64,000 bases of DNA from Acidobacteriota bacterium (GTDB lineage: Bacteria; Acidobacteriota; Vicinamibacteria; Vicinamibacterales; UBA2999). Below are positions 11,734 to 63,253 of the stretch, piece by piece; within the stretch, counting starts at the first letter, position 1; each line of letters begins with the position of its first letter. The stretch covers positions 62,001 to 126,000 of the forward strand of contig JAKFYH010000002.1 of the NCBI GenBank assembly GCA_021730945.1, given 5' to 3'. Below the pieces are notes generated by a model. The model was not told the origin of the DNA. It saw nothing but the letters and a program-made list of their open reading frames with translations, and ran no database searches. Made by a program: the position numbers and the translations under genes.

Positions 11734-12147
11734 ATGCTCAAGAGATGTGTTCTCGCTCTCGCAGTAATCGCCGTCTCCGCAGGTTCGGCCCTCGCCCAAC
11801 CGCGAATCGAAAAAGCTCCAATCCCACGGACCAACGCGTCGGAACCGAAGCAGATGTTTGACAGCTACTGCGCCGTGTGCCACGGCAAGGAGGCCAAGGG
11901 CAACGGCCCCGCCGCCACCGCCCTCGCCAAGGTTCCCGCCGACCTGACGCGGATCAGTGCACGCAACGGCGGCAAGTTCCCTGATGTCAGGGTCCGCCGC
12001 TACATCGAAGGCCTCGACGAAGTGGCGGCCCACGGCTCGCGAGACATGCCGATGTGGGGACGGTTGTTCAACGACCTCGACCGCGACACCGCCCAGATTC
12101 GCATTGCCGCGCTGGCCGAGTACCTGAAGGGACTACAGCAGCCGTAG
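11734..12147 (+). CDS. Periplasmic monohaem cytochrome c
   Basis: A 137-residue protein with a Sec signal peptide (MLKRCVLALAVIAVSAGSALA, cleavage after the ALA near residue 21). One haem motif, CAVCH, lies near residue 46, and the distal Met is probably in DMPMWGRL. It would shuttle electrons in the periplasm. The haem domain is a clear paralogue of the cytochrome domain in the Usp-cytochrome fusion at 62330 (shared patterns KxPADLT, RNGGxxP and DMPxWG). A GAAGGAG ribosome-binding site and operator A lie upstream, so it is probably induced by the Crp/Fnr system. A multicopper oxidase follows after a hairpin. Confidence 0.88.
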   Translation: MLKRCVLALAVIAVSAGSALAQPRIEKAPIPRTNASEPKQMFDSYCAVCHGKEAKGNGPAATALAKVPADLTRISARNGGKFPDVRVRRYIEGLDEVAAHGSRDMPMWGRLFNDLDRDTAQIRIAALAEYLKGLQQP

Positions 12148-47404: not shown

Positions 47405-49597
47405 CTAGAACAGGTAGGTCAAGCGGACGAACCCGGCATGTGCCGTGTACGGGCGATACAGGTAGCCAAGCAGCAACGCGTTGGTGGCGACCACCGGCTG
47501 TCCCTCCTGCACTACCGGCAGCGCCAGGCCGCTAAGCGTGGTTGGGCCGAGCGCGAAGTCCTGCACCTTGTAGTCGTCGTACCAGTAGGCGACACCGAAG
47601 CGCAGGTTGCGCGCCAGCTCGTAGGTGACATCGATCTCGCCTCGCAACAGTTCGTTCTTCACGGCCGGCAGTTGTTCCGGCGCCGGAAGCGGTGAGCCGG
47701 TGACCAGGCCATAGAGATAGGTGTCGTTCGATCGGTTCCAGTCGGCCGAGATCCGGATCATCGTTCGCTCGATGGCGCGGTCGATATCGAATGCGGCTTC
47801 AAGGAAATTGACCTTGCCGGTGTAGTCGGTGGTCCAGTTTCGCAGCAGGTTGGCCTGGTCGGTGGCGTTGTTGGCGCTGCGGGACTGCTGCCGCGACTGG
47901 TAGCGTTCCCAGCCGTAGCTGGCGCTCAGCGTATAGCGGTCGTCGGGCACCACGGTGAATCCCGCCGAGTACTGGTCGGAGTCGTACGACTGCAGGCCGG
48001 CGCCGCTGTGGGGATACTCGTCACGGCCGATGCCGGCCGAGGCGGTGAGTCCGAACATGCCGCCGGGCATCACATTGGCAATCAGCGTGACCCGCTGGCG
48101 ATCGCGGTCGGCCACGTCGTAGTGACGCAGATCGGCGAGTTCGCCGACTTCCGCCAGCGCATCGGCCTCGAAGTGCTCGCCTTCGCGCTTGCGGTTCTCG
48201 TAGACGCCGCGCAGCATCACGTACTGGTTCCCGGTCGTGTCGAGCGAGACGCGGAACACGTTCTCGGCGGTCTTTTCCCAGAGCCGGTGCGTGTAGTCGG
48301 TCACGAGGTGACTGAAGCCCACCCTCAAGGAGGTTGACGGCACCACCTGGAGCGCCGCGTCGGCGTCGAAGGTGGCGCGCTTGACCGAGTGATACTCCGA
48401 GGGTCCGGCGCTGGCGCCGAACGAGCCGTCGTAGGCAACCGACCCTCCCGCCCGCTCGAAGACCGGCGTCTGCACGTCCACGTCGGCATAGCGATACTTT
48501 GCATTGAACGACAGCAGCCGCGCCGGCCGGGACGCCAGCGTGAACTGGGCGATCGTCATCTGGTTCTTGGCTTCGGCGGTGGCCCGCGCCAGCGCAATCG
48601 GCGCGATCGCGGTGTTGATGGTGAAGGGCAGCAGCGGCTCGTTGCTGCGACCCTCGCCCAAGGCCAGGTAGCCGGTGAGACGGGTCCGTCCCGCCAGGCT
48701 GACCGCCCCGGTGCCGTGGAGGTAGGTCAGCGTGTTGGCCGGCCACAGTGACATGCGGCCCTGCGACGGCGTGCCGGCGATGTCGGGACCGTAGCGCAGG
48801 GGGTTGTCCCACGTGACGCTCTCGATGTTGTTGTCAAACGCCGACCCATCCCAGCCGATGCGCACCATGCCGGCGCTGTTGGCCCACTCGAGCGAGGTCT
48901 GGACGTCGGTGGTACGGGTATCGACCGGCACCGGCAGCTCGACGGCGTTGCTGAAGCCGAACGTGGCGCCGAACGGGATGGCGCCTTCGCGTGTGGTGTT
49001 CCGGAACTTGATGCCGATATCGGTGTGGCGATTGAGGTTGAACACCACGTCAGCCGTGCCGGTCTTGCGCAGCGTTTGCAGGTCGAACCGCACCGCCTGG
49101 TCTTCGAACGCCCGCAGGTTCTTCAGGCCGGCCTGGATTTCCTGCTGGAGGGAATCCTCGAGCCGGAACACGCCGGGCGCACTCTCGGTGTAGAGCGTGC
49201 GCGTGTCGGCGCTGATGAACAGCGGAATCTGGTCCCACATGAAGGACGCCGTCAGCCGGCCGACCCGCTGCACATCCAGTTGGTACCGCTGATCGCGATA
49301 GCCGATATTGAAGGCCTGCGCCTCGAAGTTCCAGTCGGCGGTCCGACGGCCGAGCAGGCCGTTGGTGCCGTAGACGCCGGGCCGCAAATCGCGGTAGCGC
49401 TGAAAGCGTGCTTCATCGCCATCGATGCTCGTGACTCGGCCGCCGAGGTCGATCGCGCCGTAGAGCTTGCCGCTCATCTCGCTCCTGGCCACGTCCGCCG
49501 GACTGGTCGGCGCCGGCAGTGAGGGCGGATCCTGCGCCTGCGCCAGGCCGCCCAAGGCGAGGGTCAGGGCCGCTGCCAAACACAATGTGCTTTTCAT
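47405..49597 (-). CDS. MtrB/PioB-family decahaem-associated outer membrane beta-barrel
   Basis: A 730-residue protein with a signal peptide (MKSTLCLAAALTLALGGLAQ) and many amphipathic beta-strands ending in a C-terminal aromatic (RLTYLF), as in outer membrane barrels. Length and strand pattern match MtrB/PioB proteins, which form a pore around a multihaem cytochrome for electron transfer across the outer membrane. No N-terminal CxxC was seen. It directly follows the decahaem cytochrome gene (12 nt). Confidence 0.85.
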   Translation of the reverse strand: MKSTLCLAAALTLALGGLAQAQDPPSLPAPTSPADVARSEMSGKLYGAIDLGGRVTSIDGDEARFQRYRDLRPGVYGTNGLLGRRTADWNFEAQAFNIGYRDQRYQLDVQRVGRLTASFMWDQIPLFISADTRTLYTESAPGVFRLEDSLQQEIQAGLKNLRAFEDQAVRFDLQTLRKTGTADVVFNLNRHTDIGIKFRNTTREGAIPFGATFGFSNAVELPVPVDTRTTDVQTSLEWANSAGMVRIGWDGSAFDNNIESVTWDNPLRYGPDIAGTPSQGRMSLWPANTLTYLHGTGAVSLAGRTRLTGYLALGEGRSNEPLLPFTINTAIAPIALARATAEAKNQMTIAQFTLASRPARLLSFNAKYRYADVDVQTPVFERAGGSVAYDGSFGASAGPSEYHSVKRATFDADAALQVVPSTSLRVGFSHLVTDYTHRLWEKTAENVFRVSLDTTGNQYVMLRGVYENRKREGEHFEADALAEVGELADLRHYDVADRDRQRVTLIANVMPGGMFGLTASAGIGRDEYPHSGAGLQSYDSDQYSAGFTVVPDDRYTLSASYGWERYQSRQQSRSANNATDQANLLRNWTTDYTGKVNFLEAAFDIDRAIERTMIRISADWNRSNDTYLYGLVTGSPLPAPEQLPAVKNELLRGEIDVTYELARNLRFGVAYWYDDYKVQDFALGPTTLSGLALPVVQEGQPVVATNALLLGYLYRPYTAHAGFVRLTYLF

Positions 49598-49609
49598 GAT
49601 CGGCCCCCG

Positions 49610-50632
49610 TTACTGTCGCAAGAAGGTCGCACCAGCCGGATGGTTCGACCCGTGAATGGCTGAATGGCAGGACACGCAGCTGCGGCTGTAGAGCCGGTTG
49701 CTGGTGCCGAGTACCTTGTTGTCGTAAATGGTCGACGGATGCCGCGTGTGGTTGTGGCATCGCTGGCACAGGAACGGCAGTTTCGCCACCAGCATGCGAT
49801 CGTTATTCGAACCATGCGGGTCGTGACAGGTGGCGCAACTGTCGCCGCTGACGCCGGCGTGCTCGAACAGGAACGGCCCACGCTTCTCAGTGTGGCAGGT
49901 GGCGCACGATTCGTTGATCGAGTTACCGGCCTTGAGCAGCCGCACGTTGGTCGAGCCGTGCGGGTTATGGCACGACGAACACTCCATCTTGCCTTCGCGC
50001 ACCGGCATGTGGCCGGAGCGATCGAGCTTGGCGACCTTGTCGCGGTGGCACGACATGCACTGCTGCTGCTGATTCACCGTCTTCAGTTGCGCCTTCGCCG
50101 ACTTCGGCTGGTGCACGCTGTGGCAGCTCACGCACGAGACGTTGCGCGCTTCGTGCTGGCTGCCCTTCCAGAGCGCGTGCGGGCCGCGGTTGTGGCAGGT
50201 CGCACAGGTCTCGGTCACCGCCTTGGCCGACAACTTGTTGAACTGCACCGGCTTGACTTTTTCCGGATCGCTGGCGTGGGCCTCACCCGGCCCGTGGCAG
50301 CTTTCGCATCCCTGGGCCGCGGCGGGTGTTCGCGGGTCCTTGGCCAACCCGTGCTTCGACGCCTTGAGCGACGCGTCGTAGCCCGTGTGGCAGGTCGCAC
50401 ATGCCTCTTCGCCGACATAGCCGGCCGCCGGCGTCGCCGGCGCCGTCTGGGCCGCCTGCGCCGCGGGCTCCGGCGTCGCCGGGTCGGCGGGGATGGCTGG
50501 AACGTTGTCGATCGCGGCAGGCGGAATCGGTGATGCCGCCACTGGCGCGGTGCGCGCCACGGTCGCCACCAACACACCCGCGAACAACAGCGCGGCCGCG
50601 ATGTTCATGAACGTTATTGGACGTAATCTCAC
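49610..50632 (-). CDS. DmsE/MtrA-type decahaem cytochrome c
   Basis: A 340-residue periplasmic cytochrome with signal peptide and ten CxxCH motifs: CATCH, CESCH, CATCH, CVSCH, CMSCH, CSSCH, CATCH, CATCH, CQRCH and CVSCH. An Ala/Pro-rich linker at about 30-65 precedes the haem part. The sequence and haem count fit the DmsE family, which inserts into an MtrB-type barrel. It starts with GTG behind a GAGAGGG ribosome-binding site. A long tandem repeat lies upstream. Confidence 0.92.
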   Translation of the reverse strand: MRLRPITFMNIAAALLFAGVLVATVARTAPVAASPIPPAAIDNVPAIPADPATPEPAAQAAQTAPATPAAGYVGEEACATCHTGYDASLKASKHGLAKDPRTPAAAQGCESCHGPGEAHASDPEKVKPVQFNKLSAKAVTETCATCHNRGPHALWKGSQHEARNVSCVSCHSVHQPKSAKAQLKTVNQQQQCMSCHRDKVAKLDRSGHMPVREGKMECSSCHNPHGSTNVRLLKAGNSINESCATCHTEKRGPFLFEHAGVSGDSCATCHDPHGSNNDRMLVAKLPFLCQRCHNHTRHPSTIYDNKVLGTSNRLYSRSCVSCHSAIHGSNHPAGATFLRQ

Positions 50633-50651
50633 GTCACCCTCTCTTCTGTCG

Positions 50652-50747
50652 AACTAGCAACTGCAACAGCAACTGTCAACTGAACTATCAACTGCAACTG
50701 TCCACTGCACTTCCAACTGAAACTTTCAACTTTCAAGTTTCAACTTT
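50652..50747. repeat. Degenerate hexamer/heptamer tandem repeat (CAACTGT/CAACTTT)n
   Basis: Roughly fourteen imperfect units (CAACTGC, CAACTGT, CAACTAT, CAACTTT) fill most of the 131 nt gap between the NapC-type gene and the decahaem cytochrome gene. The 3' part carries exact CAACTTT units like those between nosZ and the NosB-like gene. It is transcribed within the operon. Confidence 0.8.
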
Positions 50748-50763
50748 TCACGGCCCGTTTCAG

Positions 50764-52116
50764 CTACGGCATCTCGTGGCACGTCTGGCAGTCCTGGGCG
50801 ATGGTCCGGCCATCAGGCGCCTTGTGGTTGTCATCGTGACAACGGAAACAACCCTGCGATGCGACATGGCCGATGTTGTTCGGATACGTGCCCCAGCCGA
50901 CTTTCATTGCCGGGAAGATGTTCTGCGAATAGAGACCCTGCACGCCGGCGATCGTGCGCGCCAGGGTGGCCGGCTCGCCGGGCCGGTCGCGATACGCCTC
51001 GCGCAGCGCCGCTTCGATTCCCCGCATGGCGGCGTCGGTAGAGCCATACGGCGTCTTCAGAGCAGCCACCGCCTCACGCCGGGCGAAGGGCAGGTCGCGC
51101 GGAATGTGTCCCTGTGCGATTGCGGTGTCAACGGCGCGCTCAGCCGAGGGTTCAAAGGTGTGTGCCGGCCGGTTGTGGCAGTCGAGACAATCCATCGCGC
51201 GCCGCTCGCCGGCGGCCAGTTGCGCGGCGGTCGTGCCCTCGACCACGTACTCTCGCACCGTGCCGGAACGATCGGTGAACTTGACCCACGGGATGGTCTG
51301 GCGCTGCGGGTCGGTGGCGATGAACTCGATCCGGTTGTCGACGCTCATGTGCCAGTGAATGCCGCTGCCGGTCCCGGCGTCCGCCCGCCCGCCGCCCACG
51401 TGCAGCTGCAAGGTGGTCACGGTCTCCGAACTGGTTTCGTCATCGGCGTACTCGCGGATCTGCTTCAGCTTGTCGCCATGGTTCTTCTCGGGCCAGTGAC
51501 AGGTGGCGCAGGTCTCGCGGGCTGCACGCATGTTGTGCACCGGCGCCGGCACCGGGGTCGGCACGTTGTTGGTGAACACTTGCCAGAGCTGCCGGGTGCC
51601 CGCGATCTTCGACTGCACCAGCGCTTCGGCCCCGGGGCCGACGTGGCACGACACACACGAGACCCGCGCATGCGCCGACACCTTGTAGGCGGCATACTCC
51701 GGTTCCATGGTTGTGTGACAGGTCGTGCCGCAGAACTCCGCCGACTCCATGTGGTGCACCGCGCCATAGGCGGCGAGCGAGAAGATCAACACGTTGACTA
51801 TCGTCAGCACGCCGACCGCCACGATCACCGTCCGTGTGCGCGGCAGGCGCAGGTCGATCACCGGCCAGTCAGCCGAGCCGTGCCCGGCCGCCACTCGCCG
51901 GCGCTGCCGCCACGCGCCGATCGGAATCAGCAGCAGGCCCACCAGGAACACCGCCGGTACGGCCACAAACAGCAGCAGACCCAGGTAGGGGTTCCGCAGC
52001 TGACCGCCCATCTCGAGCGCCAACAGCACCAGAAAGACAACCGACGCCGCCGTGGCGATGGCCACGCCGACGAGGCTGATCGGGTTGCGGGCGGCTGAGG
52101 GCAGGTCGAAGCGCAT
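50764..52116 (-). CDS. NapC/NirT-type membrane multihaem cytochrome c
   Basis: A 450-residue protein with two N-terminal helices and a third at about 95-118 (TVIVAVGVLTIVNVLIFSLA), then the haem domain. One CX3CH motif (FCGTTCH) and five CX2CH motifs (CVSCH, CATCH, CLDCH, CFRCH, CQTCH) predict six haems. The order resembles NapC/NirT quinol dehydrogenases extended at the C-terminus. It would pass electrons from menaquinol to the decahaem cytochrome and porin encoded downstream. Confidence 0.87.
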   Translation of the reverse strand: MRFDLPSAARNPISLVGVAIATAASVVFLVLLALEMGGQLRNPYLGLLLFVAVPAVFLVGLLLIPIGAWRQRRRVAAGHGSADWPVIDLRLPRTRTVIVAVGVLTIVNVLIFSLAAYGAVHHMESAEFCGTTCHTTMEPEYAAYKVSAHARVSCVSCHVGPGAEALVQSKIAGTRQLWQVFTNNVPTPVPAPVHNMRAARETCATCHWPEKNHGDKLKQIREYADDETSSETVTTLQLHVGGGRADAGTGSGIHWHMSVDNRIEFIATDPQRQTIPWVKFTDRSGTVREYVVEGTTAAQLAAGERRAMDCLDCHNRPAHTFEPSAERAVDTAIAQGHIPRDLPFARREAVAALKTPYGSTDAAMRGIEAALREAYRDRPGEPATLARTIAGVQGLYSQNIFPAMKVGWGTYPNNIGHVASQGCFRCHDDNHKAPDGRTIAQDCQTCHEMP

Positions 52117-52126
52117 GATGGCCCGG

Positions 52127-52477
52127 CTATTTCTTCTTGGACACGAGCAACGCCACCAGGGCGTCGAGGTCGGCCTTGGGCAGGTTCGGGTAAGCCCGCA
52201 TGAGCGGCTTACGGGTCGCCTTGGTCTTCGCCGTCATCTCGGCCGGATTGACAATCCACTGTCGAATCTCGTCGGCCGTCAGTTTAGTGCCGACGCCGTC
52301 GAGCGGACCCTTCGCCATCCCCTTGCCGTCCAGCGAGTGACACATCGAGCACTTTTGTGCCGCGTACACCGCCGCTCCGTCCGGGGCGCCCTGCGCCGCT
52401 GCCACGGTGGTCAACATCGGCCACGCCAGAATCACCGTCGCCATTGCCATCCATCTCACGTTACGATTCGCATTCAT
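52127..52477 (-). CDS. Small periplasmic monohaem cytochrome c
   Basis: A 116-residue cytochrome with a signal peptide (MAMATVILAWPMLTTVAAAQ), one CSMCH motif, and a distal Met probably in KPLMRAYPNL. It is the first gene of the conduit operon and lies 10 nt before the NapC-type gene. Start: ATG at 52477, although a GTG one codon earlier is possible. A GAGGGA site precedes both. Confidence 0.88.
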   Translation of the reverse strand: MNANRNVRWMAMATVILAWPMLTTVAAAQGAPDGAAVYAAQKCSMCHSLDGKGMAKGPLDGVGTKLTADEIRQWIVNPAEMTAKTKATRKPLMRAYPNLPKADLDALVALLVSKKK

Positions 52478-52520
52478 CACTTCGGTCCCTCACTAAATGG
52501 CAGTTCCAAATCCGTCACAC

Positions 52521-56133: not shown

Positions 56134-57216
56134 ATGAGCGAGAGCGTCCCGCCGGTTCCCGATCCCGGCCAGGTGGCCGAGGCCCGCTGGCGGGCCGTGA
56201 TCGATGCCGCCGTCGACGGCATCATCGTCATCGATTCGCGCGGCCACATCGAAGTCTTCAACGCCGCCGCCCAGCGCATGTTCGGCTACACCGAACCCGA
56301 GATGATCGGGAAGAACGTCAAGCTGCTGATGCCTGAACCGGACCACTCGCAGCACGACGGCTATATCCGTCATCATGTGGCGACCGGCGAACGCAAGATC
56401 ATTGGTATCGGCCGGGCCGTGACCGGCAAGCGCCGCAACGGCGACACCTTTCCGCTGCACTTGTCGGTCGGCGAGATGGAGATTGCCGGCGAGCCGCACT
56501 TCACGGGCATCCTGCACGACCTGTCGAGCCGGGCCGACCTTGAAGACCGCCTGCGCGAGGCCACCGCCATGGCTCGGCTCGGCGAGATGGCAGCGGTGAT
56601 CGCGCACGAGGTGAAGAACCCGCTCGCCGCCGTGCGCGGCGCCATCCAGGTGATTGGCTCCCGGATGAAAGGCGACACCGGCGACGCCGCCATCGTCCGG
56701 GAGATCATCGCGCGGATCGACGGGCTGAACACGCTGATCCAGGATCTGCTGGTGTTCGCGCGTCCACCCAAGCCCAAGCCGTCTCCCACCGACCTGCGCG
56801 CGCTGGTGACTTCAGTCGTCACGCTGCTCAAGTCGGATCCGGCCTTCGGTCAGCTCGAGGTCGACATCCTGGGCGAGGCGCCCACCCTGCCTTCGGATCC
56901 GGCGCTGATGACGATCGTGTTTCAGAACCTGCTGATCAACTCCGCGCAGGCGATGCACGGCAAGGGCCGGATTGTCGTGGCGTTCGACGAGTCACGAGGC
57001 TGGCACCGGGTGGCGGTCATCGACCACGGCCCAGGCATTCATCCCGACATTCGCGCGGCGCTGTTTCGACCGTTCAAGACCACCAAGGCGCGCGGCACCG
57101 GCCTTGGCATGGCCACCGCCAAGCGCCTGGTTGAACTGCATGACGGCCGGATCACCGTGGACTGCCCCGCAGGCGGCGGCACCACGGTTACCGTGGCGCT
57201 GCCTTCTCCAGCTTGA
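56134..57216 (+). CDS. FixL/NtrB-like PAS sensor histidine kinase (soluble)
   Basis: A 360-residue cytoplasmic kinase. The PAS domain at about 15-135 is strikingly FixL-like (AAQRMFGYTEPEMIGKNVKL, LMPEPDHSQHDGYI, IIGIGRAVTGKRRNGDTFPL). At the position of the FixL haem-ligand His (before IIGIGR) there is Lys (GERKIIGIGR), so haem binding is doubtful. HisKA holds the phospho-acceptor in AVIAHEVKNPLAAV, and the ATPase has FQNLLINSAQAM, DHGPGIHPD and TGLGMATAKRLVELH. It is NtrB-like. It converges on the NtrC-type gene with a 29 nt overlap and probably phosphorylates it. Confidence 0.9.
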   Translation: MSESVPPVPDPGQVAEARWRAVIDAAVDGIIVIDSRGHIEVFNAAAQRMFGYTEPEMIGKNVKLLMPEPDHSQHDGYIRHHVATGERKIIGIGRAVTGKRRNGDTFPLHLSVGEMEIAGEPHFTGILHDLSSRADLEDRLREATAMARLGEMAAVIAHEVKNPLAAVRGAIQVIGSRMKGDTGDAAIVREIIARIDGLNTLIQDLLVFARPPKPKPSPTDLRALVTSVVTLLKSDPAFGQLEVDILGEAPTLPSDPALMTIVFQNLLINSAQAMHGKGRIVVAFDESRGWHRVAVIDHGPGIHPDIRAALFRPFKTTKARGTGLGMATAKRLVELHDGRITVDCPAGGGTTVTVALPSPA

Positions 57217-58558
57217 ACTTCTCGATGCGATAGCGGATTTGGTCGCGGTTGAGGCCGAGCAGGGTCGCCGCCTTGGTCTGGTTCCAGCCGCTGCGCTCGA
57301 GCGCCTGCAGCACCAGGGCGCGCTCCAGTTCCTCGAGGTTGATGCCCCCGGCCGGCAGGCCCAGGCCGGTCGACAGCTCGGCGTCGGATGCGGTGAGCAT
57401 CGAGAAGTGACTCTCGCTCAACTGATCGTCGTCGGTCAGCAGCATTGCCCGTTCGACGGCGTTGCGTAGTTCGCGGACGTTGCCGGGCCAGGCGTAGCCC
57501 TGCAGCGCCTTGAGCGCGCCGGCTGACAGTCCCTGGATTTTCTTGCGGAACTCGAGGTTGAAGATGTCGATGTAGTGGCGCAGCAGCCGCGGCACATCAT
57601 CCCGCCGATCGCGCAGTGGCGGCAGCGGCACCGCCATCACGTTGAGGCGATAGAAGAGGTCCTCGCGGAAACGGCCTTTCTTGACCTCGTCCTGCAGCGA
57701 CCGGTTGGTCGCGGCAATCACCCGGACGTCGACCTTGATGTCGGCGGCGCCGCCGACCCGCTTGAAGGATTTCTCTTCGAGAAACCGCAGCAGCTTGGCT
57801 TGCAGCAACGGCACCATCTCGCCGATCTCGTCGAGGAACACCGTGCCGCCATCGGCCGACTCGAGCAGGCCGCGCTTCATGCGGTCGGCGCCGGTGAACG
57901 CCCCGCGCTCGTGGCCGAACAGCTCGCTTTCGAGCAGCGTCTCCGGCAGGGCCGAGCAGGTGATGTTCATGAACGGCTTGGCCGCCCGGCTGCTGCTGTA
58001 GTGGATCACCTTGGCGGCCAGGTCCTTGCCGGTGCCGCTTTCGCCGGTCAGCAGGACCGTGGTCGCCGGGCTGACGCCAATCTTCTGCAGCATCGCGCGC
58101 ACCGCCACGATCGGGGCGCTCTCGCCGACGATGCTCTCGGGACCGTAGGGCTGGGCCTGGCGCGCCCGCAGTGTGCGAACCTCGCGGCGCAAGTGCGTGG
58201 TTTCGAGCGCCTTCTCGACCAGCAGCACGACCTCATCGAGGTCAAACGGCTTGTTCGCGTAGTGGAAGGCGCCGTTCTTCATGGCCTCGACCGCGGTCTG
58301 CACGCCGGTCTGGCCGGTCAGCATGATCACCAGCGTGTCGGGATCCGACTCCTTGATTTGCTTGAGCACCGAGAGGCCGCTGGCATCGGGCAGGCCGATG
58401 TCGAGCAAGACCAGGTCGACGCCTTCGCGCTGCAGGGACAGCGCGTCAGCGGCGGTGCCCGCCTCAAGGATCCGATAGCCCTCGTCCTTCAACCTGCTGG
58501 TGAGCGACCATCGGATTAGTTGTTCGTCGTCGACGATCAGAATCGTGGCGTTCGGCAT
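57188..58558 (-). CDS. NtrC-type sigma-54-dependent response regulator
   Basis: A 456-residue regulator. The receiver (DDEQLIRWSL, phospho-Asp in VDLVLLDIGLPDASG) is followed by an AAA+ sigma-54 interaction domain with Walker A GESGTGKD, the GAFTGA loop (HERGAFTGADR), Walker B GTVFLDEIGEM and an arginine finger region. A Fis-type helix-turn-helix (NQTKAATLLGLNRDQIRYRI) follows. It activates sigma-54 promoters. Sigma-54-like elements with shared inverted repeats in this window are likely targets (inference). Its start overlaps the stop of a receiver gene (TGATG). Confidence 0.94.
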   Translation of the reverse strand: MPNATILIVDDEQLIRWSLTSRLKDEGYRILEAGTAADALSLQREGVDLVLLDIGLPDASGLSVLKQIKESDPDTLVIMLTGQTGVQTAVEAMKNGAFHYANKPFDLDEVVLLVEKALETTHLRREVRTLRARQAQPYGPESIVGESAPIVAVRAMLQKIGVSPATTVLLTGESGTGKDLAAKVIHYSSSRAAKPFMNITCSALPETLLESELFGHERGAFTGADRMKRGLLESADGGTVFLDEIGEMVPLLQAKLLRFLEEKSFKRVGGAADIKVDVRVIAATNRSLQDEVKKGRFREDLFYRLNVMAVPLPPLRDRRDDVPRLLRHYIDIFNLEFRKKIQGLSAGALKALQGYAWPGNVRELRNAVERAMLLTDDDQLSESHFSMLTASDAELSTGLGLPAGGINLEELERALVLQALERSGWNQTKAATLLGLNRDQIRYRIEKFKLEKAAPR

Positions 58559-58971
58559 CAGGCGATCCCGGTGGCCGAGAACAGGCGGCCCAGTTCTTCG
58601 AGGGCAAACGGCTTGTCGAGCACGGCCTGTGCGCCGAGGTCGAGGGCCTCGGCCTTGATTTCGGCGGTGCCAAACGCGGTCATCAAGACCACGAATGCCA
58701 AGGGCAACTGCTGGCGGATCTGGCGCAGCAGCGACAAGTCACTGACGTCCGGCAGCCGCAAATCGAGGACCACGATATCGAAAGCTTGTGGGGTTCGCGA
58801 CACAAGGTCCAACGCGCCGGCGCCGTCGGCCGCCTGGTCGACGGCCATGTGGAGCGCGGCCAGCGTTTCGGCCACCGACCAACGGATCAGCGGCTCGTCG
58901 TCCACCACGAGTGCGCGAAGGGGAGCGGCGCGGGCCGGGCGCTCCTGGGCCGTAGGCGGACTGTTGATCAT
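58558..58971 (-). CDS. Stand-alone response-regulator receiver
   Basis: A 137-residue single-domain receiver. Acidic pocket DDEPLIRWSVAETL, phospho-Asp in FDIVVLDLRLPDVSDL, switch Thr in LMTAFGT and Lys in LDKPFALEEL. The DDEPLIRWS block is shared with the NtrC receiver (DDEQLIRWS) and with the next receiver, so the three look like products of duplication. It has no output domain and may act in a phosphorelay or as a phosphate sink. It is translationally coupled to the NtrC gene. Confidence 0.88.
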   Translation of the reverse strand: MINSPPTAQERPARAAPLRALVVDDEPLIRWSVAETLAALHMAVDQAADGAGALDLVSRTPQAFDIVVLDLRLPDVSDLSLLRQIRQQLPLAFVVLMTAFGTAEIKAEALDLGAQAVLDKPFALEELGRLFSATGIA

Positions 58972-58989: not shown

Positions 58990-59478
58990 TCAGCGCCCAG
59001 TATGTCCCAGCGAGTCATTGACGACAAGACGGCTCAGCTCCCCGAGCTCGAACGGCTTTGTGAGGACACCGCGAACGCCGAGCTTGCGCGCCTCGGCCAT
59101 GATCTCCGGCGTCCCGAAGGCGGTCATCAACACGACCGGTGTCTCCGGCACCAACTGGCGGATGGTGGCCAGCAGGGAGAGGTCGTTCATGTCGGGTAAT
59201 CGCAGATCGAGCACGATCACGTCGAAGGGCAAAGCGGCCGAGGTGAGGGCTTGCAGCGCCGACGCCGCACAATCGGCCTGCTCGACGTCCAGGCCAAGCT
59301 CGGCAAGGGTTTCGGTCACCGACCACCGGATGAGCGGTTCGTCGTCGACGACCAGCACGTGGAGTGGGACTTTTTTCACGGCGGGCCTCGAAATCTCTCG
59401 CGCCAAGGCGACCGGCCATTCGAACATTGGTGGCGAAAGCTGCTCGATCGCCGCCGCGAACGTGGACATGCCACCCAT
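58990..59478 (-). CDS. Stand-alone response-regulator receiver
   Basis: A 162-residue receiver with a 40-residue N-terminal extension (MGGMSTFAAAIEQLSPP). Pocket DDEPLIRWSVTETL, phospho-Asp in FDVIVLDLRLPDMNDL, switch Thr in LMTAFGT and Lys in VLTKPFELGELS. It is the first gene of the receiver-receiver-NtrC run and divergent from the Usp gene. High similarity to its neighbour suggests a recent tandem duplication. Confidence 0.88.
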   Translation of the reverse strand: MGGMSTFAAAIEQLSPPMFEWPVALAREISRPAVKKVPLHVLVVDDEPLIRWSVTETLAELGLDVEQADCAASALQALTSAALPFDVIVLDLRLPDMNDLSLLATIRQLVPETPVVLMTAFGTPEIMAEARKLGVRGVLTKPFELGELSRLVVNDSLGHTGR

Positions 59479-59532: not shown

Positions 59533-59580
59533 CCCTGATCCGGTGCCGGTCCGACCGCCGGCCATTCAGTGAGGTCTCCG

Positions 59581-60075
59581 ATGGTTGTCTTGAAGAACAT
59601 CCTCGTGGCCACCGACTTCGGTGAACCGTCCGCGGTGGCAATGGCCTATGGCCGCGACCTGGCCCGTTCCTACGGCGCCACGCTTCATGTCCTGCACGTG
59701 GTGGAAGACATGATGATGCGCTACAGCCCCGAAGTGAGCTTTGCCATTCCGGACCTGCAGCGCGACCTGGAGAAGGCTGCACGGCGTGACCTCGACGCCA
59801 CCATCACCGACGACGACCGCAAGACGTTGAAGGTGGTGGCGGAGGTGCAGACCGGCCTGACCGTGCCCGGCGGCATCACCGAGTATGCCAAGGCCCACGC
59901 GATCGACCTGATCATCGTCGGCACGCACGGACGTGGCGCGGTGAAGCAGTTGCTGCTCGGCAGCGCGGCGGAGAAGGTGGTTCGCATCGCGCCGTGCCCG
60001 GTGCTGGCGGTGCGGACCAAGGAGCGGGACTTCATCGCCCCCGATGCCCTCGCCACGACGTCGGCGAAGCCCTAA
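59581..60075 (+). CDS. Universal stress protein (UspA family)
   Basis: A 164-residue single Usp domain: NILVATDFGEPSAVAMAYGR at the N-terminus and the ATP-binding signature IIVGTHGRGAVKQLLLGSAA, then APCPVLAVRT. ATG at 59581 is preferred over the codon at 59569 because GAGGT precedes it and the family starts there. It converges on the acyl-CoA synthetase with a 4 nt overlap. In other bacteria, Usp proteins of this kind are induced by low oxygen, consistent with the context. Confidence 0.9.
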   Translation: MVVLKNILVATDFGEPSAVAMAYGRDLARSYGATLHVLHVVEDMMMRYSPEVSFAIPDLQRDLEKAARRDLDATITDDDRKTLKVVAEVQTGLTVPGGITEYAKAHAIDLIIVGTHGRGAVKQLLLGSAAEKVVRIAPCPVLAVRTKERDFIAPDALATTSAKP

Positions 60076-62144
60076 GACACGCGCACGCGCACATCAACGG
60101 CCGAGACCCCGCCGGGCAACACCTTGACGGGGTTCAGGTCCAGTTCCTGGATACCGGGACACAGGCCGACCAGCGCCGAGACACGCAGGATGGCGTCACG
60201 AAATGCCGTCTCGTCGGCGGGTTCGGCGCCGCGGAAGCCGCGCAGTAAGCGCACGCCCTTCAGCGAGTCCACCATCTCGGCCGCGTCCTGGTCGGTGACC
60301 GGGTGCAGGCGGCAAGCGGCGTCGGCCAGCAGATCGACCAGCACGCCGCCGCTGCCGCACACCACTACGTGGCCGAAGGTCGGATCGTTGATGGCGCCGA
60401 TCATCATTTCGGCGCCGGCGCTGACCATCGATTGCACCAGTAGCCCGTCAATGCGATCGCCCAGTGCCTGGGTCAGTTCCGTGGCTGCGGCGCGCACGGC
60501 CGCCGCGCTGTCGAGGCCCAGGCGCACCGCTCGGTGCTCGGTCTTGTGGAGCAGCGACTCGCCGACCGCCTTGAGGGCCACCGGCAGCCCCAGCCGCACC
60601 GCAGATGCCACCGCGTCATCGACCGTGAGTGCCAGGTCGGAGCGCGGCGTGGCGATGCCGACCGCCGACACGAGTGCGTTGGCTTCGACGGCCGTGAGCC
60701 AGCCGCCGCCGCGTTGCTTGACGGTGTCGACCACGGCCCGCGCGAGGCCGGCCTGGATGTCGCCGAACACCGGCACCTCGCCGAGTGGACGGCGGCGCCA
60801 TTCACCGTACTGCGCGACCCGCGAGAGCGCGATGGCTGCCGGCTCCGGGAAGGCGTAGCAGGGCACGGCCGCCAGCGAGGCGGGTGCCGCGTGGCTGCGC
60901 ATGAATACGCCGGCCACCGGCTTCGATGGTCCTTCCGCGGCTGCAGCGGCAATGGCCGTCGCCACTTCGTCCGCGCTGGTCACCAGTGGCGGGATGAAGA
61001 TTGCGATCACGCTGTCGACGTTGGGATCGGCCAGCAGCAGCCGCAGGGCCTGCCGGTAGTGTTCCGGCGGCGCCGATGCCAGCATGTCGACCGGGTTGTT
61101 CACCGCTGCGGCCCGCGGCAGCAATGCCCGCAGTCCCGCCTTGGTTTCCGGACACAAGTCAGCCGCAACCAGGCCATGAGCCAGGCAGGCGTCGGCCGCG
61201 AGAATGCCGGGTCCACCGGCGTTGGTCAGAATCGCCACCCGTCGTCCCGGCGGCAGCGGCTGGCGCGAGAGCAGCGTGGCGACGTCGAACAGCTCGGTCA
61301 CGGTGCCAGTGCGAATCACGCCGGCCTGGTGAAACAGCGCGTCCACGAAGTCGTCGGACGCCGCCAGTGCGCCGGTATGCGACGCGGCCGCCCGGGCGCC
61401 GACAGACGACCGCCCGGACTTCAGTGCCACGATCGGCTTGGTGCGGCTGATGCGGCGGGCGATGCGGCTGAACTTCGACGGATTGCCGAAGCTCTCGAGA
61501 TACAACAGGATGACCGCCGTGCGCGGGTCCGACTCCCAGTACCGCAACAGGTCGTTGCCCGAGACGTCGGCCTTGTTGCCGACCGAGACAAAGCTCGAGA
61601 TGCCGATGTTCAGTTGCCGCGCGTAGTCCAGAATCGCCAGTCCAAGGGCCCCGCTCTGGGTCGACATGGCCACGGCGCCGGCCGGCGGATACACCGGCGA
61701 AAACGTCGCGTTCAGCGAGAACCGCGGATCAGTGTTGAGCAGGCCCATGCAGTTGGGGCCGATGAGGCGGCTGCCTGCCGCCCGCACCTTGCGCACCATC
61801 TCGCGTTCGATGGCCCTTCCATCCTCATCGCATTCGCCAAATCCGGCGCTGATGATGCAGATCGCAGGCACATGTTTGGCCAGGCACTCGTCCACGGCGG
61901 CCGGCACGTGCGCCGCCGGCACCACGATCACGGCCAAATCCACGGCGAATGGAATCGTCGCCATGCTCGGATAGGCGGTCAGACCCTGAATCACGTCGGC
62001 CGACGGGTGGACCGGCACCAGCCTTCCGGTGAAGCCAGTGGCCACCAGGTTGTGCAGGATCTCCGATCCAATCTTGTTGCGTTCGCGGCTGGCGCCGACC
62101 ACGGCAACGCAGGCGGGTTCAAAAAAAGCAGTCAGCTCGCCCAA
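60072..62144 (-). CDS. ADP-forming acyl-CoA synthetase (acetate-CoA ligase type)
   Basis: A 690-residue fused NDP-forming enzyme. The CoA-binding domain begins FEPACVAVVGASRERNKIGS. The succinyl-CoA ligase-like domain contains STQSGALGLAILDYARQLNI and the phospho-His region AAASHTGALAASDDF. A C-terminal ATP-grasp domain has PVALKAVGESLLHKTEH and DPTFGHVVVCGSGGVLVDLL. It interconverts acyl-CoA plus ADP and acid plus ATP, a route to ATP from acetyl-CoA in fermentation. A TTG start at 62144 is chosen: it has GAGTGAGG upstream and lies downstream of a sigma-54-like promoter; the ATG at 62264 would include that promoter. Confidence 0.87.
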   Translation of the reverse strand: MGELTAFFEPACVAVVGASRERNKIGSEILHNLVATGFTGRLVPVHPSADVIQGLTAYPSMATIPFAVDLAVIVVPAAHVPAAVDECLAKHVPAICIISAGFGECDEDGRAIEREMVRKVRAAGSRLIGPNCMGLLNTDPRFSLNATFSPVYPPAGAVAMSTQSGALGLAILDYARQLNIGISSFVSVGNKADVSGNDLLRYWESDPRTAVILLYLESFGNPSKFSRIARRISRTKPIVALKSGRSSVGARAAASHTGALAASDDFVDALFHQAGVIRTGTVTELFDVATLLSRQPLPPGRRVAILTNAGGPGILAADACLAHGLVAADLCPETKAGLRALLPRAAAVNNPVDMLASAPPEHYRQALRLLLADPNVDSVIAIFIPPLVTSADEVATAIAAAAAEGPSKPVAGVFMRSHAAPASLAAVPCYAFPEPAAIALSRVAQYGEWRRRPLGEVPVFGDIQAGLARAVVDTVKQRGGGWLTAVEANALVSAVGIATPRSDLALTVDDAVASAVRLGLPVALKAVGESLLHKTEHRAVRLGLDSAAAVRAAATELTQALGDRIDGLLVQSMVSAGAEMMIGAINDPTFGHVVVCGSGGVLVDLLADAACRLHPVTDQDAAEMVDSLKGVRLLRGFRGAEPADETAFRDAILRVSALVGLCPGIQELDLNPVKVLPGGVSAVDVRVRVS

Positions 62145-62170
62145 TACACATGCCTCACTCCGATCCGGGA

Positions 62171-62186
62171 TGCACAACTTGGGCCA
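62171..62186 (-). promoter_or_regulatory. Sigma-54-like promoter of the acyl-CoA synthetase gene
   Basis: Minus-strand TGGCCCAAGTTGTGCA has GG-N10-GC spacing, TGGC at -24 and GTGCA at -12. The predicted start near 62160 leaves a 16 nt leader with GAGTGAGG before the TTG start. Confidence 0.45.
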
Positions 62187-62246
62187 GAGCGCGAAATTTC
62201 CCGGCGCGGTGAATATGTCGCGGTCCCAACCTGCGCAGCGGCTCAA

Positions 62247-62259
62247 ATCCCCGGGGGAT
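62247..62259. promoter_or_regulatory. Inverted repeat H (ATCCCC-G-GGGGAT)
   Basis: A 13 bp inverted repeat lies between two divergent sigma-54-like promoters, about 93 bp from the minus-strand start and 49 bp from the plus-strand start. It carries ATCCCC/GGGGAT, a shorter relative of the GGGGAAT repeats. A further GGGAAATTTCGCG element lies at about 62191-62203 on the minus strand. Confidence 0.4.
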
Positions 62260-62275
62260 CGCACTCCGGCGAAGC

Positions 62276-62290
62276 TGGCACGGAGGTTGC
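62276..62290 (+). promoter_or_regulatory. Sigma-54 promoter of the Usp-cytochrome c gene
   Basis: TGGCACGGAGGTTGC matches TGGCACG-N4-TTGC at every consensus base, the best -24/-12 promoter in the window. Predicted start near 62302, leaving 28 nt with an AAAAGGA ribosome-binding site before the ATG. Confidence 0.8.
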
Positions 62291-62329: not shown

Positions 62330-63253
62330 ATGACGCCCGACTTCAAGAGCATTCTCGTCCCCGTCGATTTCAGTTCGAACTCCGCGCGTGCGCTCGAGTA
62401 CGCGCATACCCTCGCGATCCGCTTCGACGCATCGCTGCATCTGATTCACGTGTGCGAGGTGCCGTCCGCCGCGACCGGGTCAATGGATGCCTTCGCGATC
62501 GCTTATACCGACTGGAGCCAGCGCCTTGGCGCCGAGGCCGAAGGCGAACTCCTGAAACTGGTGCCGAAGCTGCCCGATGTCACGGTGACGACGGAAGTGC
62601 TGTTCGGCAATCCGCCGCGGGCCATCGTGGCGGCGGCGGCCAGCCGCAACAGTGACCTGATCGTGATGGGTACGCATGGCCATGGCGCCTTGATGCACGC
62701 GCTGCTCGGCAACGTGGCCGAGCGGGTCGTGCGGACGGCGCCGTGTCCGGTACTGACCATCCGCGAACCGCGCGAGGCCGAGCCGGTCGCCGGGCGCGCG
62801 GTCACCAATGCTGGTGTCCTCGTGGCCGGGATGTTGACCGCGACCATGTTGTCGTTTGCGGCGGTGGTCACGGCCGCCGCGCAGGAGCCCGCGGCGCCAC
62901 CGCCGGCTGAGATGCGCCAGCAGGTGACCGGCGGTGAGGTGTACCGAACCTACTGCGCGACCTGCCATGGGCCAGCCGGGCGCGGCGATGGCCCCTTGGC
63001 CAGTTCAATGCGGCGCAAGCCAGCCGACCTGACCGAGATCGCCAAGCGCAATGGCGGTGAGTACCCGTCGGAGATCGTGTTCCGCACCATTGACGGCAAG
63101 ACGCCGGTGCGCGGTCACGGCGGACCGGATATGCCCGTGTGGGGCGACGCCTTCGCGCGTTCACGCGATGGCGGCGACCCGGCCACGGTCAAGGCGCGCA
63201 TCGACTCGCTCGTGGATTACATCCGCACCCTCCAAGTCAAAGCCGTTCACTGA
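62330..63253 (+). CDS. Usp domain-transmembrane-cytochrome c fusion protein
   Basis: A 307-residue fusion. Residues 1-150 form a UspA domain (SILVPVDFSSNSARALEYAH, VMGTHGHGALMHALLGNVAE, APCPVLTIRE). A hydrophobic segment follows at about 160-185 (GVLVAGMLTATMLSFAAVVT), then a cytochrome c domain with CATCH and a probable distal Met in DMPVWGDAF. This predicts a cytoplasmic nucleotide-binding domain tied to a periplasmic haem domain. The cytochrome part is a paralogue of the protein at 11734. No stop separates the parts. Two once-separate genes, with the helix a former signal peptide, could explain it. Confidence 0.87.
   Translation: MTPDFKSILVPVDFSSNSARALEYAHTLAIRFDASLHLIHVCEVPSAATGSMDAFAIAYTDWSQRLGAEAEGELLKLVPKLPDVTVTTEVLFGNPPRAIVAAAASRNSDLIVMGTHGHGALMHALLGNVAERVVRTAPCPVLTIREPREAEPVAGRAVTNAGVLVAGMLTATMLSFAAVVTAAAQEPAAPPPAEMRQQVTGGEVYRTYCATCHGPAGRGDGPLASSMRRKPADLTEIAKRNGGEYPSEIVFRTIDGKTPVRGHGGPDMPVWGDAFARSRDGGDPATVKARIDSLVDYIRTLQVKAVH

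Follow-up and report, generated by a model that had tools for sequence, protein, structure and literature searches.

A genus-restricted fusion of a universal stress protein to a cytochrome c in Acidobacteriota, probably transcribed from a sigma-54 promoter

Introduction

Universal stress proteins (Usp) are widespread and often induced by hypoxia, and the targets of their action are mostly unknown. In a 64,000-nucleotide stretch of DNA from an Acidobacteriota bacterium (the window), one predicted gene appears to run from a Usp domain through a hydrophobic segment into a c-type haem domain. Is this truly one gene, how did it arise and how is it controlled, and does its product act as a single membrane-spanning protein or as two proteins cut from one precursor?

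Results

A single, conserved open frame

The gene and its landmarks lie as follows:
62330..63253, plus strand: usp-cytochrome c fusion gene, 307 aa plus stop, with orthologues in relatives
62342..62764, plus strand: Usp domain, aa 5-145 (PF00582, 4e-36; fold matches TeaD, UspA and MJ0577)
62669..62713, plus strand: ATP-loop motif G114-x2-G117-x9-G127-N128, read from the sequence (canonical G-2X-G-9X-G-S/T, here N)
62798..62881, plus strand: predicted hydrophobic internal signal sequence or membrane segment, about aa 157-184 (sequence, and hydropathy against stand-alone homologues)
62873..62884, plus strand: putative signal peptidase I site AAA↓Q after A184 (arrow, predicted cut); A and Q invariant in 6/6 fusions
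62927..63232, plus strand: cytochrome c domain, aa 200-301 (PF00034 and PF13442)
62954..62968, plus strand: CATCH haem-attachment motif, aa 209-213, read from the sequence; C209, C212 and H213 invariant in the alignment of six fusions
63131-63133, plus strand: candidate distal Met268, invariant in the same alignment

Translation of 62330-63253 yields 307 residues with a single stop, at the end, and the purine-rich GAAAAGGACC precedes the ATG. The PF00582 match (125 bits against a cut-off of 24) covers positions 2-141 of the 141-position profile and thus represents a full-length Usp. Its ATP loop reads G-x2-G-x9-G-N in all five full-length fusions, departing at the last position from the G-2X-G-9X-G-(S/T) of the ATP-binding Usp subtype (motif as quoted in PMC11841059). 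Residues 201-301 match the Cytochrom_C model (PF00034) at 25.3 bits against a cut-off of 21.3, with the CBB3 model slightly below its own cut-off, and CATCH at residues 209-213 supplies the CxxCH expected of a class I-type cytochrome c. DMPVWG at residues 267-272 holds Met268, a candidate axial ligand, and the methionine of this DMP(V/A)WG motif is invariant across the six fusions. Judged by these motifs, the fused cytochrome is monohaem and class I-type.

Structure prediction (mean pLDDT 80) gave two confident globular domains, the Usp with a Rossmann-like fold and the C-terminal one helical, and low confidence for the linker between them; this model was built from a deeper alignment with mis-registered single-domain Usp rows and is uninformative about the linker and the inter-domain geometry. 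A prediction from the six fusions alone reached a mean pLDDT of 43. In a Foldseek search, the predicted model matched TeaD, UspA and MJ0577.

Full-length fusions in one open frame were also found in four other members of the window's GTDB genus (G001, G005, G006 and G007, at 66, 67, 62 and 76% identity), and linker lengths vary among the fusions by whole codons. A second copy in G006, G006b, has diverged and encodes 249 aa; some 57 Usp residues are missing from it, the ATP loop among them, and signal and cytochrome stay in frame. This copy (L124:16476-17225, on G006 contig 143) has its own sigma-54 motif, and a divergent receiver gene adjoins it.

The original prediction of a Usp domain, a hydrophobic segment and a c-type haem domain in one uninterrupted frame is therefore borne out by translation, by Pfam and by four full-length orthologues. 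Two ways in which it might have failed were a stop or frameshift hidden near 62790-62830 and a pair of genes with an internal start. Four independently assembled species keep the same open frame, G007 has no ATG, GTG or TTG from the Usp end past the putative cleavage site, and no linker start codon is conserved among the six fusion genes; a hidden stop and a two-gene arrangement are thus excluded as general explanations. Two products made by internal translation initiation, from two genes in one frame, might be suggested by two ATG codons that lie in frame in G000 (aa 168 and 173), but none of the candidate starts has an evident ribosome-binding site, and the start-free linker of G007 makes this highly improbable. 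An assembly or sequencing artefact has a nearly negligible probability: carriers other than the window's genome and G007 are all metagenome assemblies, but five independently assembled genomes have the same frame, at 62-76% identity and with conserved synteny. The fusion gene is real and conserved.

Distribution and origin of the fusion

The fusion was not found outside this genus in overlapping sets of 43 genomes from the family, 162 from the order and 396 from the phylum, nor among the best 80 loci from a scan of a GTDB collection covering 84,980 species, which was aimed at close relatives and may miss unrelated fusions. A DNA-pattern search of the order for unrelated Usp-CxxCH fusions returned one match outside the genus (G013), whose printed sequence is not Usp-like. 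In the phylum, a loosened pattern that also accepts CxxCH, and so admits chance matches, gave many matches, mostly multihaem or chance, and among those with loci Usp occurred only in the known fusions. Plasmid and phage collections held no record covering 80% of the query. The original prediction knew of no characterised protein with this architecture, and literature searches, of incomplete coverage, likewise gave no Usp-cytochrome fusion; the domain architecture appears to be new.

The cytochrome has several relatives. That at 11734-12147, earlier named as its free-standing paralogue, is indeed a real paralogue (PF13442, 1.1e-7; 38% identity to the fused cytochrome), but it is neither the nearest relative nor a likely donor: a copy on contig 15 of the same genome is closer (47%), stand-alone cytochromes of the sister genus reach 56-58%, and in the tree the 11734 cytochrome is a distant paralogue in a different group. 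All fused cytochromes fall into a single group (bootstrap 71 / SH-aLRT 99), which points to one origin and within which G006a and G006b form a later duplicate pair (100/95). G076, which belongs to a different family within the order, has an unfused pair 4 bases apart: a usp gene with two domains and, across the junction TAA-TCC-ATG, a cytochrome that bears a signal and falls in the same broad family, although other cytochromes are closer in the tree. Because this is the arrangement from which stop loss would give the fusion, origin by stop loss is suggested. Most likely, the fusion arose once, when a usp gene lost the stop codon that separated it from a cytochrome c gene downstream. The proposal that a usp gene and a cytochrome gene had merged, with the signal peptide becoming the linker, gains from the G076 pair and from the likeness of the linker to the signal peptides of stand-alone homologues. 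Elsewhere, open frames of ~270 aa in L030, L033 and L034 (G023, G025 and G017) encode a pair of cytochrome c domains, of which the second is a relative of the fused one.

The linker as a putative signal peptide

Among the fusions, the linker (aa 146-192) has only L174, A184 and Q185 as invariant residues and evolves fast, with pairwise identities of 0.21-0.47. Many stand-alone relatives have signal peptides that end alike (GRAEA↓Q, TVTA↓Q, ALA↓Q). A profile of 20 such signal peptides, aligned at A↓Q by construction, ranked A↓Q top in 6/6 linkers; its score was clearly above that of shuffled linkers in 4/6, and was not in G001 (p 0.24) and G006a (p 0.63). With a 19-residue mean of 1.8-2.3, the linkers are also hydrophobic enough to serve as stable membrane anchors, and slightly more so than stand-alone signal peptides. 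By NG86, dN is well below dS in both the Usp and the cytochrome, and the linker has the higher dN; dS often approaches saturation, which leaves these values rough, and YN00 estimates mostly failed numerically. Both domains are thus under purifying selection. Since the linker resembles a cleavable signal peptide and its A↓Q is invariant in 6/6 fusions, the product looks like a polyprotein, a reading that we favour over a permanent transmembrane coupler. The genome encodes cytochrome c assembly genes. Known Usp structures dimerise, and dimerisation could hinder export of a C-terminal domain.

A sigma-54 promoter motif

Upstream of the gene lies the following element:
62276..62290, plus strand: sigma-54 -24/-12 promoter motif TGGCACGGAGGTTGC, 39 nt before the ATG

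The sole clearly conserved stretch upstream of the six fusion genes is TGGCAYG-N4-TTGC, a sigma-54 -24/-12 signature. In the form TGGCAY-N5-TTGC it precedes 6/6 fusion genes by 29-40 nt; across the roughly 95 kb of the five fusion loci it has seven matches, these six and one other. Genome-wide (4.7 Mb), a near-identical pattern is no commoner than its reversed control (8 against 8), so that only the position of the motif carries weight; with so few occurrences in 4.7 Mb, its presence at this position in every fusion is not chance. The genome encodes one sigma-54 factor (RpoN, 1.3e-65), and the motif suggests that the fusion gene is probably transcribed from a sigma-54 promoter.

A conserved regulatory neighbourhood

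The genes preceding the fusion are:
56134..57216, plus strand: PAS histidine kinase with FixL-like haem PAS (start 56134 inferred; phmmer to the FixL PAS 1dp6, 2.2e-40; NCBIfam FixL, 3.1e-68)
57188..58558, minus strand: NtrC/AtoC-type sigma-54 response regulator containing GAFTGA, with orthologues found
58558..58971, minus strand: receiver-domain response regulator
58990..59478, minus strand: receiver-domain response regulator
59569..60075, plus strand: stand-alone Usp of the conserved block (PF00582, 2.8e-31; synteny)
60072..62264, minus strand: ADP-forming acyl-CoA synthetase-like protein (ATP-grasp_5, Succ_CoA_lig, CoA_binding; synteny), 5' end probably overcalled

By approximate gene calls, the block of kinase, NtrC regulator, receiver(s), Usp and fusion is kept in 5/5 genomes and the acyl-CoA synthetase in 4/5. 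The NtrC-type regulator has a wider spread than the fusion (26/43 family genomes). Within the genus, all five members with the regulator have the fusion and none of the four without it does, two of these four being less than 90% complete.

The NCBIfam FixL match of the kinase is below the curated cut-off. Its PAS domain aligns best with that of Bradyrhizobium japonicum FixL, and both a His (SQHDGY) and an Arg (IIGIGR) are conserved relative to 1dp6; the equivalent of FixL Arg206 is His. We take the SQHDGY His to be the proximal, haem-ligating residue and the IIGIGR Arg to be the distal Arg of FixL-type PAS domains. That a strikingly FixL-like haem-PAS kinase in an Acidobacteriota genome adjoins an NtrC-type, not a FixJ-type, regulator is an observation in its own right.

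In Myxococcus xanthus, an NtrC-like regulator and a haem-dependent sensor control a Usp together with a cbb3 oxidase cluster (PMC11841059). From this parallel, together with the sigma-54 motif, the shared kinase/NtrC/Usp block and the FixL-like PAS, we infer that the fusion gene likely belongs to an oxygen-responsive regulon.

A likely outer-membrane electron conduit (window 47405-52480, minus strand) lies near the fusion module:
47405-49597, minus strand: MtrB/PioB-like outer membrane protein
49610-50632, minus strand: DmsE-family decahaem cytochrome (above cut-off)
50764-52116, minus strand: NrfH/TorC-like pentahaem protein
52127-52480, minus strand: small cytochrome c

Discussion

How might such a protein work? 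The best explanation of the whole, to which we give about an even chance, is a genus-restricted stop-loss fusion that is regulated by sigma-54 and low oxygen, and is exported and cleaved as a polyprotein. We postulate that, at low oxygen, the adjacent FixL-like kinase and NtrC-type regulator would switch on the sigma-54 promoter, and that one polypeptide would be made, with its Usp domain folding in the cytoplasm. Its internal signal would then engage the export machinery, the cytochrome domain would receive its haem in the periplasm, and signal peptidase I would cut at the conserved A↓Q site. The cut would yield two products at a ratio of 1:1, a Usp that keeps a membrane tail at its C-terminus and a soluble electron carrier in the periplasm.

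A possible, distinctly less probable reading is that the protein stays uncut and bitopic, a signal anchor tethering the cytochrome in the manner of cytochrome c-y while the cytoplasmic Usp couples nucleotide state to periplasmic electron transfer. The single frame would suit this, as would a linker whose hydrophobicity falls in the range of membrane helices and is a little higher than in stand-alone signal peptides, purifying selection on both domains, and the fact that each of the five genus members with the regulator module has kept the fusion. It sits poorly, however, with an invariant A↓Q site of the same kind as in stand-alone relatives, with an ATP motif that ends G-N, and with G006b, in which the cytochrome stays in frame despite deletion of the ATP-binding half of the Usp. 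The same three observations weaken the original proposal that periplasmic redox state is coupled to a cytoplasmic nucleotide sensor. In its most specific form, a low-oxygen-induced transmembrane redox-energy coupler in which nucleotide binding or dimerisation of the Usp gates electron transfer by, or docking of, its own cytochrome, or the reverse, the idea is improbable. G006b, which has lost about 57 Usp residues with the ATP motif yet kept promoter, signal and cytochrome, could suggest a largely neutral fusion, with the cytochrome as functional product and the Usp as a passenger leader retained after stop loss. This too is improbable, because five species keep the Usp at full length, its dN lies well below dS, and the full-length fusions share the distinctive G-N motif.

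The polyprotein reading is not without precedent. FbcH of B. japonicum, a cytochrome b/c1 polyprotein, is encoded by one gene with an internal signal before its cytochrome c domain and is cut by signal peptidase; its N-terminal partner, unlike the Usp, is an integral membrane cytochrome, and its cleavage has been shown, whereas that of the fusion is predicted. Cytochrome c-y and CycM are class I cytochromes held by an N-terminal hydrophobic segment; they have no Usp domain, and a conserved AxA↓Q site is not expected there. Stand-alone monohaem class I-type cytochromes of the sister genus, with Sec-like signals, have the same domain, CxxCH, DMPVWG and A↓Q site, but in the fusion about 155 residues of Usp and linker precede the signal, which is internal instead of N-terminal. 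The N-terminal half resembles the Usp family (PF00582; MJ0577, TeaD, MXAN_3966) in its complete domain, its G-2X-G-9X-G loop and its fold, which matches TeaD, UspA and MJ0577; it differs in carrying a C-terminal export signal and a cytochrome c, and in having N, not S/T, at the third motif position.

Because a Usp is here tied to a respiratory-type cytochrome behind an apparently oxygen-responsive promoter, a link between Usp and respiration becomes directly testable. If cleaved, the product would be a rare bacterial polyprotein delivering its parts to two compartments; if uncleaved, it would be a new kind of transmembrane redox-energy coupler.

As for regulation, the closest parallel is the NmpRSTU oxygen regulon of M. 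xanthus, which combines an NtrC-like regulator, a haem-dependent sensor, a Usp and respiratory genes (PMC11841059), to which the FixL-like PAS kinase, NtrC regulator, Usp and cytochrome of the window would correspond. The Nmp sensor, NmpU, is a protoglobin kinase (PMC11841059), whereas PAS and histidine-kinase regions account for the kinase adjacent to the fusion, and no fusion is described for Nmp. CBS proteins have been linked with the Nmp system (PMC11841059), and short proteins that appear CBS-domain-like by eye, and are reminiscent of these, lie near the fusion module in G007 (L125:16456-16896) and G005 (L128:13350-13802).
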